This document shows, in pieces, positions 24,474 through 31,082 of a DNA stretch of 64,000 nt. Position 1 is the first letter of the stretch. Each line of letters starts with the position of its first letter. The notes beneath the pieces are model-generated. The model was not told the DNA's origin. It made no database searches and worked only from the letters and a program-made list of their open reading frames with translations. The translations under genes were made by a program, and so were the position numbers. The DNA comes from Methylobacter tundripaludum SV96 (GTDB taxonomy: Bacteria; Pseudomonadota; Gammaproteobacteria; Methylococcales; Methylomonadaceae): contig NZ_JH109152.1 in the NCBI RefSeq assembly GCF_000190755.2, positions 2,675,576 through 2,739,575 of the forward strand, written 5' to 3'.

Positions 24474-26825
24474 ATGGCCGACAAGAAAAGTCTCTCCGAA
24501 CGCGACATCTGTACCAAGTACATCACCCCGGCCATCACTGGCGCGGGGTGGGATCTGCATAGCCAGATCCGGGAGGAAGTGAGCTTCACTAAAGGACGAA
24601 TCATCGTACGCGGCAAGCTGCATACCCGTGGCGAGCAAAAGCGTGCCGATTATATACTGTATTACAAGTCGAATATCCCGCTGGCAGTAATCGAAGCCAA
24701 GGAAAACGGCCATAGCGTAGGTGCCGGTATGCAGCAGGCGCTGAATTATGCGGAAACCCTGAGTGTGCCGTTTGTGTTCAGCTCCAATGGCGACGCTTTC
24801 CTGATGCATGACCGCACCGGGCTGGCCGACAAGATCGAGCAGGAGCTGGCGCTGGGCGACTTCCCGTCGCCCGCACAGTTGTGGCGGCGCTATTGCCAGT
24901 GGAAGGGACTGGAAACGTTAGAAGCACGCCATACCGTAGAAATGCCGTACTACGATGACGGCACAGGCCGTGCCCCGCGTTATTACCAAGCCAACGCCAT
25001 CAATAACACGGTGGAGGCGGTGGCGAAAGCCCAGCAGCGCATCCTGCTGGTCATGGCGACCGGCACCGGCAAGACCTACACCGCATTCCAGATCATATGG
25101 CGATTATGGAAGTCGGGCACCAAAAAACGCATCCTGTTTCTGGCCGACCGCAACATTCTGGTCGATCAAACCAAAAACAACGATTTCAAACCGTTTGGCG
25201 CGGCGATGACCAAGATCAGCAAGCGCCAGATCGACAAGAGCTACGAGATTTACCTGTCCTTATATCAGGCCGTCACCGGCAGCGAAGAAGAGCGGAACAT
25301 TTACAAGCAGTTCTCGCCGGATTTTTTCGACCTGATTGTGATCGACGAATGCCATCGCGGCAGCGCAGCGGAAGATTCCGCATGGCGCGATATTCTGGCC
25401 TATTTTTCCTCGGCCACGCATGTGGGCTTAACCGCCACGCCGAAAGAAACCAAGAACGTTTCCAGCATCTATTACTTTGGCGACCCGGTTTACAGCTACA
25501 CGCTGAAGCAAGGCATCGAAGACGGCTTTCTTGCGCCGTACAAAGTGGTGCGCATCGACATCGACAAAGACGTGCAAGGCTGGCGGCCCAGCAAAGGCCA
25601 GACCGACAAAACCGGCCAGTTGATTGAAGACCGCGTTTACAACCAGATCGATATGGATCGTACTCTGGTGCTGGAAAAGCGCACCGAGCTGGTCGCCAGG
25701 AAAATCACCGAATTTCTGGTGGCGACAGATCCTTACGCCAAAACCATCGTGTTCTGCGATGACATCGACCACGCCGAGCGCATGCGCCAGGCCTTGGTCA
25801 ACCTGAACCCCGAGCGGGTCAAGGAAAGCCGCAAATACATAATGCGCATAACCGGCGATGAACTCGAAGGCAAGGCCGAGCTGGATAACTTCATCAACCC
25901 CGAAGAGCGTTATCCGGTGATCGCCACCACCTCCAAACTGATGACGACAGGCGTAGATGCACAAACCTGCAAGCTGGTGGTCCTGGATCAGCACATCAAG
26001 TCGATGACCGAATTTAAGCAAATCATCGGGCGCGGCACACGCATCAACGAGGATTACGACAAATTCTGGTTCACCATCATGGATTTCAAAAAGGCGACCG
26101 AGCTGTTTGCCGACAAGGACTTTGATGGCGAACCGGTGATGATTTATGTGCCGGAAGGCGGGGAGTCGCCCGTACCGCCAGACGATGAGCCCGAAATCAT
26201 CCCCAATGAAAGCAACAGCCAGCCTCCCCCCTTTGAAAAAGGGGGGATTGAGGGGGGATTTTCCAAACGCATGAAATACATACTCGGCGATGTGACCGTG
26301 TATGTCGTTGCCGAGCGCGTCCAGTATTACGGGCCGGAAGGCAAACTGATTACCGAATCACTCAAGGATTACACCCGTCAAACGGTGCGAAAGGATTATT
26401 CCTCACTCGACGAATTCTTGCGCCGTTGGAGCAAAGCCGAACGCAAGGCTGCCATCCTGCAAGAGCTGCAAGAACACGGCCTGTTGCTGGAACCGCTGGC
26501 CGACGAAGTGGGCAAAGACTTCGACGCCTTCGACCTAATCTGCCACGTTGCCTTTGACCAACCGCCTCTAACCCGCCGCGAGCGTGCCGACCAGGTAAAA
26601 AAGCGCAACTATTTCGCCAAATACGGCGAGCAGGCGCGCAAAGTGCTCGAAACCCTGCTGGAAAAATACGCCGACACCGGCATAGAAAATATCGAAGACA
26701 TTAAAATTCTCACGCTGGACCCATTCAAAAATATGGGCACGGCCAGTGAGTTGGTGTCAGCTTTTGGCGGCAAGCCAGCCTATATGGCAGCACTGTATGA
26801 GTTGGAAGAAAACCTTTACGCATAA
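24474..26825 (+). CDS. hsdR: Type I restriction enzyme, R subunit (EcoEI/type IB-like)
   Basis: HsdR supplies the ATP-driven translocase and nuclease of a type I restriction system. The 783-residue protein has an N-terminal PD-(D/E)XK nuclease ([20 protein letters not shown], about residues 60-79), helicase motif [16 protein letters not shown] near 196, motif II DECHRGS near 292 and motif [17 protein letters not shown] near 517, then the EcoEI-type C-terminal domain. Residues 585-596 ([12 protein letters not shown]) are encoded by a dispersed palindromic repeat read in frame, between the helicase and C-terminal domains. It is first of the hsdR-hsdM-DUF559-hsdS order. Confidence 0.95.
26225..26260. 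repeat. C/G palindromic repeat, copy 1, in frame inside hsdR
   Basis: CCCCCCTTTGAAAAAGGGGG followed by GATTGAGGGGGGATT. Read in frame it gives [12 protein letters not shown]. It is the first of eight copies in 3.4 kb. Confidence 0.9.
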
Positions 26826-26857
26826 ATCCCCCCTGCCCCCCTTTTTCAAAGGGGGGG
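26825..26857. repeat. C/G palindromic repeat, copy 2, between hsdR and hsdM
   Basis: AATCCCCCCTGCCCCCC followed by TTTTTCAAAGGGGGGG, in the opposite orientation to copy 1. It begins at the hsdR stop codon and could form a hairpin there. Confidence 0.9.
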
Positions 26858-26902
26858 AATAAACTCTTACCGATAAATAATCAAACCAATATAATCAAAC
26901 CA

Positions 26903-28687
26903 ATGAGCATTTCCTCCACCATCAAATCTATCCAGGACATCATGCGCAAAGACGTCGGTGTCGATGGCGACGCCCAACGCTTGAGCCAGCTGGTCTGGAT
27001 GTTATTTTTGAAAATCTTTGACGACCGCGAAAGCGAATGGGAGATTTTGCAAGACAATTACCAATCGCCGTTGCCGGAGCAATACCGCTGGCGCAACTGG
27101 GCAGCCAATGCAGAAGGCATGACCGGCGATGCGCTCAAACAATTTCTCGACAATGACCTGTTTCCCGCCTTGCAGCAACTGGAAGCCAAAGGCGGCGACC
27201 AGCGTGCCTATGTGATCCGCTCGGTGTTTGAAGATGCCTACAACTACATGAAATCCGGCCAGTTGATTCGGCAGGTGATCAACAAGATTCAGGAAGGCGT
27301 CGATTTCAACAAGGCGCAAGAGCGCCACTTGTTCGGCGATATGTACGAGCAACTGCTGCGCGATTTGCAGTCGGCAGGCAATGCGGGCGAATTTTACACG
27401 CCGCGTGCCGTGACCGAATTCATGGTGCGTATGGTCAACCCGCGCCTCGGTGAAAAAGTGCTGGACCCGGCCTGCGGCACCGGCGGCTTCCTGTCCTGCT
27501 CGATAGAACATATCCGTAAGCAGGACGTCTTAACGGTAGATGATGAAGCGCGGTTGCAAGCGAGCATTTTCGGTATCGAGAAAAAGCCGATGCCGCATTT
27601 GCTCTGCACCACCAACATGATCCTGCACGGCATCGATGTGCCCAGCAATATCCGCCACGACAACACCCTGGCGCGTCCGCTGATCAGTTGGGGGCCGAAA
27701 GAGCGTGTCGATGTAGTCGTCACCAACCCGCCGTTCGGCGGCATGGAAGAAGACGGTATAGAAACCAACTTTCCGGCAACATTCCGCACCCGTGAAACGG
27801 CTGACCTGTTTCTGGTACTGATTATGCAGATGCTCAAAGCCGGTGGCCGCGCCGCGCTGGTTTTGCCGGATGGTTTCCTGTTCGGCGAAGGCATCAAAAC
27901 CCGCATCAAGGAAAAACTGCTGGAAGAATGCAACCTGCACACCATCGTGCGCCTACCCAACGGCGTGTTTGCGCCGTATACCGGCATCAAAACCAACCTG
28001 CTGTTTTTCAGCAAAGGCACGCCGACCCGGCACATCTGGTTTTACGAGCACCCGTACCCGCCCGGCGTAAAAAACTACAACAAAACCAAGCCGATGAAGA
28101 TTGCAGAGTTTGATGCGGAGGCGGCCTGGTGGGGCAAGGAAACCGACGGCTTCAAACAGCGCGTCGAAAACCAATACGCGTGGAAGGTCGGCATTGATGA
28201 CATCAAGGCGCGCAACTACAACCTCGATAGCAAAAATCCGCATATCGGCGAACAGGAAATTCACGATCCCGAGCTGCTGCTGGCGCAATATAACACTATG
28301 CAGAATGACATCGCCGCGCTACGCGGGCAGCTGAAAGATATTTTGGATGAAGCTTTGAAATCCCCTAAATCCCCCCCGGCCCCCCTTTTACAAAGGGGGG
28401 AGAATGAGGTGTCTCAAAAGTCTGCTCTTTTACAAAAGGAGGGGAATGAGGTATCTCAAAAGGCTGCTCTTTCACAAAAGGAGGGGAATGAGGTGTCTCA
28501 AAAGGCTGCTCTTTTACAAAAGGAGGGGAATGAGGTGTCTCAAAAGTTTGCTCTTTTACAAAAGGAGGAGAATGAGTTATCTCAAAGGCCTGCTCTTTCA
28601 CAAAAGGAGGGGAATGAGACATCTCAAAAGCTCATTCCTTCACAAGTGGGGAAAAAAAAGTCCCCCCCTTTGAAAAAGGGGGGCTAG
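26903..28687 (+). CDS. hsdM: Type I restriction-modification, M subunit with repeat-built C-terminal tail
   Basis: HsdM is the adenine-N6 methyltransferase subunit. The 594-residue protein has the N-terminal helical domain (to about 150), AdoMet motif I VLDPACGTGGFL near 187 and catalytic motif IV NPPF near 275. The normal domain ends near residue 487 (DILDEAL). The remaining 107 residues are foreign-looking: two palindromic-repeat copies enclose five and a half tandem 14-residue units of the type NEVSQKAALLQKEG. The stop codon itself lies in repeat copy 4. The catalytic part is intact, so methylation is expected to work if the tail does not interfere. Confidence 0.95.
   Translation: MSISSTIKSIQDIMRKDVGVDGDAQRLSQLVWMLFLKIFDDRESEWEILQDNYQSPLPEQYRWRNWAANAEGMTGDALKQFLDNDLFPALQQLEAKGGDQRAYVIRSVFEDAYNYMKSGQLIRQVINKIQEGVDFNKAQERHLFGDMYEQLLRDLQSAGNAGEFYTPRAVTEFMVRMVNPRLGEKVLDPACGTGGFLSCSIEHIRKQDVLTVDDEARLQASIFGIEKKPMPHLLCTTNMILHGIDVPSNIRHDNTLARPLISWGPKERVDVVVTNPPFGGMEEDGIETNFPATFRTRETADLFLVLIMQMLKAGGRAALVLPDGFLFGEGIKTRIKEKLLEECNLHTIVRLPNGVFAPYTGIKTNLLFFSKGTPTRHIWFYEHPYPPGVKNYNKTKPMKIAEFDAEAAWWGKETDGFKQRVENQYAWKVGIDDIKARNYNLDSKNPHIGEQEIHDPELLLAQYNTMQNDIAALRGQLKDILDEALKSPKSPPAPLLQRGENEVSQKSALLQKEGNEVSQKAALSQKEGNEVSQKAALLQKEGNEVSQKFALLQKEENELSQRPALSQKEGNETSQKLIPSQVGKKKSPPLKKGG
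28367..28400. repeat. C/G palindromic repeat, copy 3, in frame near the hsdM 3' end
   Basis: A C-rich arm beginning at 28367 pairs with GGGGGG at 28395-28400 around TTTTACAAA. It is read as PPAPLLQRGE and leads directly into the tandem array. Confidence 0.9.
28403..28651 (+). repeat. Tandem 42-bp (14-codon) repeat array in hsdM
   Basis: Five complete 42-bp units start at 28403, 28445, 28487, 28529 and 28571, and a sixth partial, diverged unit starts at 28613. Each unit begins AATGAG and contains CTTTTACAAAAGGAGGGG or a close variant, which looks like a decayed palindromic repeat. Because 42 is divisible by three, copy-number changes would not shift the frame. The minus strand is also open across the array. 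Confidence 0.95.
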
Positions 28688-28695
28688 GGGGGATT
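28661..28695. repeat. C/G palindromic repeat, copy 4, at the hsdM stop
   Basis: TCCCCCCCTTTGAAAAAGGG continues into GGGCTAGGGGGGATT. The TAG inside it is the hsdM stop codon, and the DUF559 ATG begins at 28696, immediately after. Confidence 0.9.
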
Positions 28696-29238
28696 ATGAA
28701 ACCGTACAATCCAGTCCTAAAACCATTTTCCCGTAACTTGCGTAGCGGCATGACCGATGCCGAACAGTTGCTTTGGTCAAAATTGCGCCGCAAGCAAATA
28801 TTGGGCTTGCAGTTTTATCGCCAAAAACCTTTGGCTAACTACATCGTCGATTTTTATTGCGCAGCAGCCAATCTCGTCATTGAACTCGATGGTTCGCAGC
28901 ATTTCGAACCGGATCACCAAGCTCGTGATGCAGAAAGAGATCGGGCGCTGGAGTCAATGGGCATAATGGTGTTGCGGTTTGATAACCGTCAGGTATTGAC
29001 AGAATTGGACGCAGTGATGAGTGTTGTTTTTAATGTAGTTGAAAAGCAAATCAAAATCCAAATCCCCCCCCCTTTTGCAAAGGGGGGAGTAATAGCGTCA
29101 ACATCAACATCTGGATTTGACAAAGGGCTGGATTCCACGGCAGTACAGACACAAACAACACCACAAACATCACAAACATCACCCCCCTTTGAAAAAGGGG
29201 GGCAGGGGGGATTTTCAAAAAAGGGCAATTCCGTATGA
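28696..29238 (+). CDS. DUF559 (Vsr-like) endonuclease-domain protein within the hsd operon
   Basis: Residues 1-118 form a DUF559 domain of the PD-(D/E)XK/very-short-patch-repair fold: LRSGMTDAEQLLWSKLR, then QFYRQKPLANYIVDFYC with the metal-binding aspartate, then LVIELDGSQH and RDRALESMGIMVLRF. The C-terminal 60 residues are not part of the family and contain two palindromic-repeat copies read as PPPFAKGG and [11 protein letters not shown]. The stop overlaps the hsdS ATG (ATGA), so the gene is translated with the hsd genes. Whether it has nuclease activity or a role in the restriction system is unknown. Confidence 0.85.
   Translation: MKPYNPVLKPFSRNLRSGMTDAEQLLWSKLRRKQILGLQFYRQKPLANYIVDFYCAAANLVIELDGSQHFEPDHQARDAERDRALESMGIMVLRFDNRQVLTELDAVMSVVFNVVEKQIKIQIPPPFAKGGVIASTSTSGFDKGLDSTAVQTQTTPQTSQTSPPFEKGGQGGFSKKGNSV
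29061..29088. repeat. C/G palindromic repeat, copy 5, in frame inside the DUF559 gene
   Basis: A C-run, then CTTTTGCAAAGGGGGGAG. It is read as IPPPFAKGG at about residues 122-130. Confidence 0.88.
29182..29213. repeat. C/G palindromic repeat, copy 6, in frame inside the DUF559 gene
   Basis: CCCCCCTTTGAAAAAGGGGG continues into GCAGGGGGGATT. It is read as [11 protein letters not shown] at about residues 163-173. Confidence 0.9.
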
Positions 29239-31082
29239 GCACCATTCAGACGTTACTGACCGATCACATCGACATCTGGACAGCCGCCGACACCGCGAAA
29301 AAGTCAGGCCGTGGCCGTAGCTCAAATAATGCCGCCAGCGTCTATGGCATCAAGAAACTGCGCGAGCTGATTCTGGAACTTGCCGTGCGCGGCAAGCTGG
29401 TGCCGCAAGATGCTAATGACGAACCGGCCAGTGAATTGCTCAAACGCATACAGGCTGAAAAAGCTAAGTTGATTGCCGAAGGCAAGATCAAGAGAAAATC
29501 CCCCCTAACCCCCCTTTTACAAAGGGGGGGATCAACCCCAATAGCAGCGACATCAAACTCAAACTCTCCCCCCTTTGTAAAAGGGGGGCCGGGGGGGATT
29601 TCTGTGGAAGAAAAACCGTTTGAGTTACCGAAAGGTTGGGAGTGGGTGCATTTGCCTGATGTAAGTGATTACAAGGTTGGGAAAACTCCGTCTACAAAAA
29701 GTAGTGTTTATTGGACAAATTCTGGCGATGGTTTTAATTGGGTTAGCATTGCGGATCTGAACCATGATGACAGCGTTTTTGAAACAAACAAGCAGATAAC
29801 AGATAAAGCTGTATCTGAAGTATTTAGGAGTGATCCTGCACCAGCAGGAACAATTCTTATGAGTTTCAAATTGACCTTGGGCAAGATTTCTATACTTGAT
29901 AAGCCTGCTTTCCATAATGAAGCAATTATTTCAATATATCCCAATCAAAGTGTTTTTAAGGATTTTTTGTTTAAGGTTTTACCTGCTCGCGCAATGGCTG
30001 GAAATTCCAAAAGTGCAATTAAAGGTAACACACTTAATTCGGAATCAATTGCGGCTTTGATGATCCCGCTGCCACCAATGGCAGAACAGCAGCGCATCGT
30101 CGCCAAAGTCGATGAACTGATGGCGCTGTGCGACCAACTGGAAACCCAGCACAGCAACGCCGCCGAAGCTCACGAAAAACTCGTGAGCCATCTGCTCGGC
30201 ACACTCACGCAATCGCAAAACGCCGATGATTTCAGCGCCAACTGGCAGCGCATCGCCGCGTATTTCGATATCCTGTTCACCACCGAAACCAGTATCGACG
30301 CCCTCAAGCAAACCCTGCTGCAACTGGCGGTGATGGGTAAGCTCGTGCCACAAGACCCGAACGACGAACCGGCCGGTGAATTGCTCAAGCGCATACAGAC
30401 TGAAAAAGCCAAGCTGATTGCCGAAGGCAAGATCAAGAAAGATAAACAGCTTCCGCCGATAACTGATGATGAAAAGCCGTTTGGTTTGCCGGAGGGATGG
30501 GAGTGGATTAAAGTTTCAGAAGTTGCTGAATTGATAACTTCAGGTTCGCGAGATTGGGCGCAATACTTATCTAATGAAGGCGCCAAGTTTGTCACAATGG
30601 GGAATCTTTCTAGGGGTAGTTACGAGCTCAGATTAGGAAATATGCGGCACGTAAATCCTCCTAAGGACGGAGAGGGTTCGCGCACTAAATTAGAGGCAAA
30701 TGATCTTTTAATCTCTATTACGGGGGACGTGGGAAACTTGGGCAGGATTCCAGAAGATTTTGGTGATGCGTACATTAACCAGCATACATGCCTTTTGAGG
30801 TTTGTTTCCCAGTGTCGGAATAGGTATTTTCCAGAGGTCATGAGATCGCCAATGGCAGCCATGCAGTTTAATGCGCCACAGCGAGGCATTAAGAATAGCT
30901 TTCGCTTAGGTGATTTGGATGAGATGGTTATTCCTTTGCCACCACTTGCCGAACAACACCGCATCGTCGCCAAAGTTGATGAACTAATGGCACTGTGCGA
31001 CCAACTAAAAACCCGCATCACCGAAGCCAATCAGTTACAGCAAAAACTGGCGGATGTGGTGGTTGAACGGGCAATATCGTAA
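29235..31082 (+). CDS. hsdS: Type I restriction-modification, specificity subunit
   Basis: HsdS contains two target recognition domains and sets the bipartite DNA sequence. The 615-residue protein is an internal duplication. Each half has a leading segment (LRELILELAVRGKLVPQD / LKQTLLQLAVMGKLVPQD), a recognition domain after PKGWEW / PEGWEW, and a conserved helical spacer (RIVAKVDELMALCDQL). The first linker carries two palindromic-repeat copies (residues 88-122) that the corresponding second linker lacks, so about 30 residues were inserted. The two recognition domains differ, as expected. The ATG overlaps the DUF559 stop. Confidence 0.95.
   Translation: MSTIQTLLTDHIDIWTAADTAKKSGRGRSSNNAASVYGIKKLRELILELAVRGKLVPQDANDEPASELLKRIQAEKAKLIAEGKIKRKSPLTPLLQRGGSTPIAATSNSNSPPFVKGGPGGISVEEKPFELPKGWEWVHLPDVSDYKVGKTPSTKSSVYWTNSGDGFNWVSIADLNHDDSVFETNKQITDKAVSEVFRSDPAPAGTILMSFKLTLGKISILDKPAFHNEAIISIYPNQSVFKDFLFKVLPARAMAGNSKSAIKGNTLNSESIAALMIPLPPMAEQQRIVAKVDELMALCDQLETQHSNAAEAHEKLVSHLLGTLTQSQNADDFSANWQRIAAYFDILFTTETSIDALKQTLLQLAVMGKLVPQDPNDEPAGELLKRIQTEKAKLIAEGKIKKDKQLPPITDDEKPFGLPEGWEWIKVSEVAELITSGSRDWAQYLSNEGAKFVTMGNLSRGSYELRLGNMRHVNPPKDGEGSRTKLEANDLLISITGDVGNLGRIPEDFGDAYINQHTCLLRFVSQCRNRYFPEVMRSPMAAMQFNAPQRGIKNSFRLGDLDEMVIPLPPLAEQHRIVAKVDELMALCDQLKTRITEANQLQQKLADVVVERAIS
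29498..29530. repeat. C/G palindromic repeat, copy 7, in frame inside hsdS
   Basis: AATCCCCCCTAACCCCCCTT continues into TTACAAAGGGGGGG. It is read as SPLTPLLQRGG at residues 89-99. Confidence 0.9.
29568..29600. repeat. C/G palindromic repeat, copy 8, in frame inside hsdS
   Basis: CCCCCCTTTGTAAAAGGGGG continues into GCCGGGGGGGATT. It is read as PPFVKGGPGGI at residues 113-123, in the opposite orientation to copy 7. Confidence 0.9.

Follow-up and report, generated by a model that had tools for sequence, protein, structure and literature searches.

DUF559 nuclease genes are nested among intrastrand-triplex repeats and may encode the enzymes that mobilize them

Intrastrand-triplex repeats, short DNA units composed of a hairpin and a third arm, are concentrated around genes encoding DUF559 (PF04480) nucleases in bacteria. 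The repeats were recognized in a 64,000-nucleotide stretch of the genome of Methylobacter tundripaludum SV96 (contig NZ_JH109152.1, positions 2,675,576 to 2,739,575 of the forward strand), hereafter called the window, where eight units lie in an hsd restriction operon with a DUF559 gene nested among them. The association of DUF559 with the repeats is strong. By analogy with the REP-associated tyrosine transposases (RAYTs) of repetitive extragenic palindromic (REP) sequences, DUF559 is probably the cognate enzyme of the triplex repeats, and would catalyze their spread. We are evenly divided on the wider proposal that DUF559 proteins are the mobilizing enzymes of bacterial intrastrand-triplex repeats, forming minimal mobile systems in about 20 named phyla, each combining a single nuclease of the Vsr/homing type with terminal DNA triplexes, with non-autonomous copies that include the potential intrastrand triplex (PIT) and TMECO elements of Escherichia coli and that insert in frame into conserved genes.

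The eight copies of the repeat CCCCCCTTTNNNAAAGGGGGG start at positions 26226, 26836, 28380, 28663, 29067, 29182, 29509, and 29568 of the window. A search with one 20-base form, allowing up to three mismatches, gave 17 matches, all within the eight copy sites, and none in 100 shuffled sequences. Scanned independently for triplexes, the window as a whole contains the same eight units and none further. The original prediction, of eight C6/G6 palindromes within 3.4 kb of the hsd locus and none elsewhere in the window, was therefore accurate, as was its account of their reading: six copies are translated in frame, the copy at 28663 carries the stop codon that ends hsdM, and the copy at 26836 is intergenic. 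The in-frame peptides are SPPAPLLQRGE in HsdM, SPLTPLLQRGG and SPPFVKGGPGGI in HsdS, two in the DUF559 protein (one of them IPPPFAKGG), and one in HsdR. The 4.85 Mb genome contains 22 exact C5TTTN3AAAG5 sites, or 30 with one mismatch allowed, and eight of the 22 are inside the 3.4 kb of the hsd locus (binomial probability approximately 1e-15), which rules out a uniform genome-wide density.

The units are tripartite and not bare palindromes. Each is 25–36 bp long, and all eight consist, in this order, of a pyrimidine arm CCCCCCTTT, a purine arm AAAGGGGGG, and a third arm GGGGGGATT, with three loose bases between the first two arms and one to three between the last two; at 29061 the third arm is shorter. 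Relative to the purine arm, the third arm is a mirror sequence by a reverse-Hoogsteen rule: G faces G, and A faces either A or T, as in antiparallel purine-motif triplexes. In 308 hairpins from 151 loci, taken alone with the register set by the G positions only and without correction for related sequences, A is faced in the third arm by A in 243 cases, by T in 274, by G in 24, and by C in three. Reading the third arm as a direct repeat fits less well (0.646 of positions, against 0.826 for the mirror; permuted means 0.581 and 0.703); the mirror code permits T or A opposite A, and a strict mirror gives 0.682. Intrastrand triplex motifs (PIT; TM/TMECO) were reportedly the subject of earlier work by Hoyne et al. 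in 2000. Holder et al. (2015) define them by a pyrimidine stem, a purine stem, and a third strand of 6–15 nucleotides each, loops of 1–6 nucleotides, and one mismatch if longer than seven (PMC4666352). All eight window copies agree with this definition, with 7–10 triads, loops of 3 and 1–3 nucleotides, and no mismatches, and are, as far as sequence can tell, potential intrastrand triplex motifs of the PIT/TM kind. DNA folding of one unit returned a hairpin only (z −0.96) and no triplex. A scan of positions 26000–30000 against Rfam gave nothing credible, the weak matches on the unit being to miRNA models far below their cut-offs.

The order of the units on the map, given by strand and start, is + 26225, − 26825, − 28368, + 28663, the DUF559 gene, − 29061, + 29182, − 29497, and + 29568. 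The DUF559 gene (28696..29238, + strand; conserved core 28696–29055) is predicted to encode a nuclease of the EDxHD/Vsr-like fold. Its ATG directly follows a unit at 28663..28695 (+ strand, nine triads, no mismatches), whose TAG ends hsdM and whose third arm points toward the gene. The unit just downstream of the core, at 29061..29085 (− strand, seven triads, no mismatches), is translated and also directs its third arm toward the gene. Each has an inverted partner of nine triads: the left one, at 28368..28400 (− strand), forms with the upstream unit a pair with outward third arms and is in frame in hsdM, and the right one, at 29182..29213 (+ strand), is in frame in the DUF559 tail. The core is thus flanked by two inverted unit pairs, of which the right-hand one encodes the C-terminal tail of the protein. 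A third inverted pair occupies the HsdS linker, with its left half at 29497..29529 (− strand, in frame, nine triads) and its right half at 29568..29600 (+ strand, nine triads). The remaining two units are in the HsdR linker (26225..26260, + strand, in frame, ten triads) and between hsdR and hsdM (26825..26856, − strand, nine triads). The nested gene matches PF04480 and, more weakly, other nuclease families, and has no match to Y1_Tnp; its fold is of the PD-(D/E)XK type, close to those of Vsr and I-Bth0305I.

Beyond the window, too, such units cluster at DUF559 genes, and their focus is not hsd. Two sets of loci were compared: the best 80 of at least 565 stretches encoding relatives (at least 585 matched) from a search that used the DUF559 core without its repeats as query, and 82 DUF559 loci from 151 genomes of the same order as M. 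tundripaludum. The resulting 162 loci omit the window itself (L017), a duplicate (L180), and a locus without a tblastn match (L179). An inward-pointing unit lies within 150 bp at 132 of the 162 loci (66 of 80 and 66 of 82), and on both sides at 64 (34 and 30). Within 100 bp of DUF559 the density of units is 8.6 and 7.1 per kb in the two sets, compared to 0.10 and 0.15 beyond 1 kb, a 46–87-fold difference; of the units within 150 bp, 204 are directed inward and 84 outward. The 66 loci of the first set that have an inward unit come from about 20 named phyla, mostly from metagenome-assembled genomes.

Control genes lack such units. A unit lies within 150 bp of 72 of the 82 DUF559 genes and of none of the 30 best-scoring Y1 transposase domains from the same order. 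A set limited to top scores may contain too few RAYT-type genes, and a second Y1 control therefore drew on eight genomes selected mainly for their abundance of repeats. It added 28 loci, some with lower scores. None of these has a unit within 150 bp either, bringing the total to 0 of 58, and three units occur within 500 bp; in the same eight genomes, a unit lies within 150 bp at eight of nine DUF559 loci. Among the 151 related genomes, the 30 N6-methylase domains with the highest scores, none of whose loci holds a DUF559 match, likewise have no unit within 150 bp, and two units in total within 1.5 kb. This control was measured from the domain ends, so that the first 150 bp are partly intragenic; no unit was found to approximately 1 kb.

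The methylase control bears on the explanation first offered for the cluster, that the hsd genes arrived from a repeat-rich genome or tolerate the repeat unusually well. The hsd locus is common to Methylobacter and Nitrosomonas at approximately 80–85% DNA identity, the HsdR repeat included, because of which it has probably moved, and hsd-like genes occur within 1.5 kb of 21 of the 82 DUF559 genes (several of one lineage) and of none of 30 Y1 loci. Restriction operons therefore seem to be a preferred place for DUF559 blocks. However, the stretches around 131 of the 162 DUF559 loci have no hsd match, and the 30 methylase domains, at loci without DUF559, have no unit within 150 bp, which makes either version of this explanation very unlikely. 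An ordinary signal for transcription of DUF559, a terminator or operator, would fit the short distance of the units from the conserved core (medians of 21.5 bp on the upstream and 19 bp on the downstream side). Such a role is hard to credit for the same unit on both sides in mirror orientation, for downstream hairpins that by eye generally have no following T-run, and for copies scattered inside coding genes; PIT elements are cited by Holder et al. as having no promoter or terminator activity (PMC4666352).

Many DUF559 genes carry, instead of the class I unit of the window, a class II unit, CCCTCTCCC-N-GGGAGAGGG-NNN-GGGTGAGGG. The repeat class follows the DUF559 clade. A FastTree phylogeny was calculated from 159 DUF559 rows after three short rows had been dropped; 49 of the 159 have no class label and are outside the 70 class I and 40 class II rows. 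The two classes need one change on the tree, at a branch with support 88, whereas shuffled labels need approximately 33, and each of the 110 labelled rows agrees in class with its closest labelled neighbour. The matching extends to whole genomes. For counts in the 151 genomes, made without correction for phylogeny, each unlabelled DUF559 protein was given the class of its nearest labelled one, and the class I DUF559 of the window was added by hand to genome G000. Class I repeats are present in 17 of 25 genomes with class I DUF559 and in 35 of 126 without it (p 3e-4), and are not associated with class II DUF559 (p 0.13). Class II repeats are present in 39 of 43 genomes with class II DUF559 and in 47 of 108 without it (p 5e-8); their comparison with class I DUF559 gave p 0.27, and 0.03 in a rank test. 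The only exact class I sites of one genome (G052) adjoin its DUF559 gene.

It is also conceivable, if rather unlikely, that DUF559 serves in repair or clean-up, as a structure-specific nuclease resolving hairpin or triplex DNA at the repeats and controlling them without spreading them, and that the linkage reflects selection for tight co-inheritance. The Vsr-like fold is consistent with such a function, the Caulobacter DUF559 protein VsrA was described as responsible for an SOS response in a methylase mutant (PMC12907096), and no amplified DUF559 copies were seen within one genome among the loci compared. Yet a repair enzyme could act in trans without being bracketed by its substrate across about 20 phyla and without matching its class in 110 of 110 rows, and the repeats are more, not less, frequent where DUF559 is present.

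Genomes differ in holding or lacking unit pairs and whole DUF559 blocks at orthologous sites, in keeping with movement of the pairs. The HsdS pair (29497–29600) corresponds to 28 in-frame residues, which are lacking in 21 of the 26 homologous segments aligned (in some cases two segments come from one locus), in agreement with the proposal that the repeat peptides are insertions; the corresponding linker of a distant HsdS (G036, L072) also carries an insertion, similar to this one. The same proposal was not borne out for HsdR, whose linker is variable: in a homologue of 88% identity (L222), the linker lacks the peptide and is of comparable length, being four residues longer. The original prediction had counted recurrence of a peptide at the same site in distant genomes, as a conserved protein feature, against itself. 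Such recurrence is seen at the HsdR site, where, within the same hsd lineage, Methylobacter and Nitrosomonas homologues have the peptide in common. The intergenic unit (26825–26856) is present in L089, imperfect in L094, and absent from L091 and L092. Elsewhere in the M. tundripaludum genome, a palindrome pair is in frame in an aminotransferase gene; the site is empty in seven of nine relatives compared (of 22 in a search of the genus), with four bases in place of 112, and the other two have different, shorter unit sequences. The inserted segment ends in AAATC...GATTT, with no clear target duplication relative to the empty relatives. In-frame copies are not special to hsd: others are translated within genes recognized by their Pfam domains as encoding DNA polymerase III delta' (presumably holB), a subunit of acetyl-CoA carboxylase (presumably accD), a glutamine amidotransferase, a Nuo-type subunit, and a laccase-like protein. 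A whole DUF559 block is present at an hsdR/hsdM junction in four genomes and absent in four, and the block at a type III mod-like/res-like junction (named by eye) is absent in G157. DUF559 blocks were also observed inside or beside hsdR/hsdM, type III mod/res-like genes, and a DUF1156 gene of a Synechocystis plasmid (L021, L086, L184).

A protein search of a plasmid collection led to two E. coli records, whose DUF559 gene is ycjD, positioned between sapF and fabI in strain K-12. At a query coverage of at least 80%, ycjD was found in 3364 of 5426 genomes. In 60 rows spaced evenly down one search ranking, TMECO-like places number 13–31 (median 18.5) in the 38 rows with ycjD, one of them partial, and 1–15 (median 4) in the 22 without it. 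The absence of ycjD is probably lineage-bound, and the result therefore represents one correlated contrast, not 60 independent ones. A clean empty site of ycjD was not obtained from the two ycjD-less strains examined; in these (L187, L188), genes for a major facilitator superfamily transporter and outer-membrane efflux follow sapF.

Several observations weigh against DUF559 as the enzyme that spreads the repeats. The in vivo footprints of Holder et al. do not support a stable triplex (PMC4666352). Repeats occur without the gene: class II sites in the 47 of 108 genomes and class I sites in the 35 of 126 that lack the matching DUF559, and up to 15 TMECO-like places in E. coli rows without ycjD. 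Two repeat-rich genomes, G075 (109 class II sites) and G015 (81), have no DUF559 match at all, and may have lost the gene, have a gap in a draft assembly, or use another enzyme. The gene also occurs without repeats, as eight of 25 genomes with class I DUF559 and four of 43 with class II have no exact site of their class under the strict patterns used, and at 30 of the 162 loci no unit within range points inward. The units flanking ycjD are degenerate, with none of seven or more triads in L182 or L183 and one of six in K-12. The aminotransferase and holB-type copies are imperfect, and a scan at six triads finds no unit there. A target-site duplication was not established. No near-identical pair of DUF559 genes was found within one genome among the loci compared, so that the gene itself was not seen multiplying. 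Repeat load correlates nearly as well with counts of Y1 transposases (Spearman 0.46) as with counts of DUF559 (0.49), and general mobile load and phylogeny therefore contribute; the DUF559 count against repeat load alone was set aside as not specific.

The Y1 correlation and the repeat-rich genomes G015 and G075 could also indicate that another enzyme spreads the repeats, and that DUF559 genes home into existing ones by recombination between copies, using them as landing sites. Triplex pairs ride inside another miniature inverted-repeat transposable element (MITE), with CACTGCCATTAAGTTAAG ends, in G153, and the fold of DUF559 is that of a homing nuclease. Random landing does not fit the strict correspondence of class and clade or the sites of G052, and with no unit within 150 bp of any of 58 Y1 loci this explanation appears quite improbable.

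If DUF559 is the cognate enzyme, the pyrimidine and purine arms would pair as a hairpin in single-stranded DNA and the third arm would fold back onto the purine strand, forming a triplex in the cell. DUF559 would recognize its own class of folded unit, bind it, and cut at or near its foot, and the cutting would drive the spread. The released or broken ends would allow an inverted unit pair, or rarely a whole DUF559 block, to be copied to a new place by strand transfer or break repair. The inverted pairs dispersed over the genome would be non-autonomous copies, many of which may survive in genes because some unit frames are open.

The units share the three-strand anatomy of PIT/TM/TMECO elements, among which inverted pairs of two units also occur (PMC4666352). 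Class II units beside many DUF559 genes match the TMECO pattern, CCCTCNCCCN3-6GGGNGAGGGN3GGGNGAGGG (PMC4666352), whereas the class I units of the window, with CCCCCCTTT, do not have its CCCTCNCCC...GGGNGAGGG...GGGNGAGGG form. Across 5,246 genomes and plasmids, Holder et al. counted 988,588 potential triplex sequences, compared to 276,270 after scrambling, as well as 3,610 TMECO copies in 262 genomes; they demonstrated the TMECO triplex in vitro, not in vivo (PMC4666352). No relation of the motifs to mobile elements or gene classes was found in that paper, which assigns the sequences no specific function and whose main text contains neither "DUF" nor "endonuclease" (PMC4666352). The link of triplex repeats to DUF559 is new, the repeats and DUF559 each having been known separately before; no paper joining the two was found in the open-licence PubMed Central literature, which excludes subscription papers and preprints. 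In the same literature the peptide PPFEKGG was not found; 46 papers contain one of the repeat strings, and the 20 among them that were listed look, by title, like chance.

The scattered inverted pairs of REP/RAYT systems, which are REPIN-like, resemble the triplex pairs. In REPtrons the gene of the enzyme, RAYT (TnpA-REP), is likewise nested among palindromes, and enzyme clade and repeat class co-vary (PMC8266576). Bracketing by inverted repeat copies is found at DUF559 loci too. Unlike the HUH/Y1 transposases of REPtrons, DUF559 is a PD-(D/E)XK enzyme, and its unit, unlike a REP, adds a third arm to the hairpin and can potentially form a triplex. Compared to I-Bth0305I and Vsr, the DUF559 protein of the window is a bare catalytic domain of approximately 115 residues nested between triplex units; no intron, intein, or dcm partner was seen in the window operon. 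Vsr nicks T:G mismatches in a dcm-type site; the methyltransferase of the window operon is of the N6 type. Palindromic elements of Rickettsia, which are not known to have an enzyme of their own, are unrelated to the window unit in sequence, and the latter is shorter and has a candidate enzyme. The likeness is that of palindromic selfish DNA surviving in frame inside conserved genes (PMC10969869).

The assignment of triplex motifs to one nuclease family, with class following clade, makes their origin directly testable, including in E. coli K-12. If correct, it would be a second solution to the REP/RAYT problem, by unrelated enzyme chemistry. DUF559/YcjD would gain a role, possibly as a natural reader of triplex DNA, and PPFEKGGxGGF-like peptides inside conserved proteins would have a reason.

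The host operon of the window, on the + strand, consists of hsdR (24474..26825; Pfam ResIII and EcoEI_R_C), hsdM (26903..28687; N6_Mtase), and hsdS (29235..31082; Methylase_S). The tail of hsdM contains a 42-bp tandem array (28378..28671, + strand) that looks derived from the unit and has apparently grown from a unit copy; it keeps the reading frame (EVSQKAALLQKEGN repeats). Near position 2546232 of contig C1 in the same genome (L008), a repeat alone is found where relatives such as G054 have approximately 1.1 kb between the flanks, which by its sequence looks like a deletion or gene loss at the unit. In G153 (L289–L296), a MITE with CACTGCCATTAAGTTAAG ends is present at eight places, identical by eye over the stretch displayed, with a class II triplex pair inside; these eight near-copies had been considered for defining the unit ends and were rejected as evidence, being a different element that carries the pair. 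A metagenome-assembled genome of Janthinobacterium (L101, 5001–5358) contains a frameshifted DUF559 gene with two inverted unit pairs, where the element matches the window and hsd does not.

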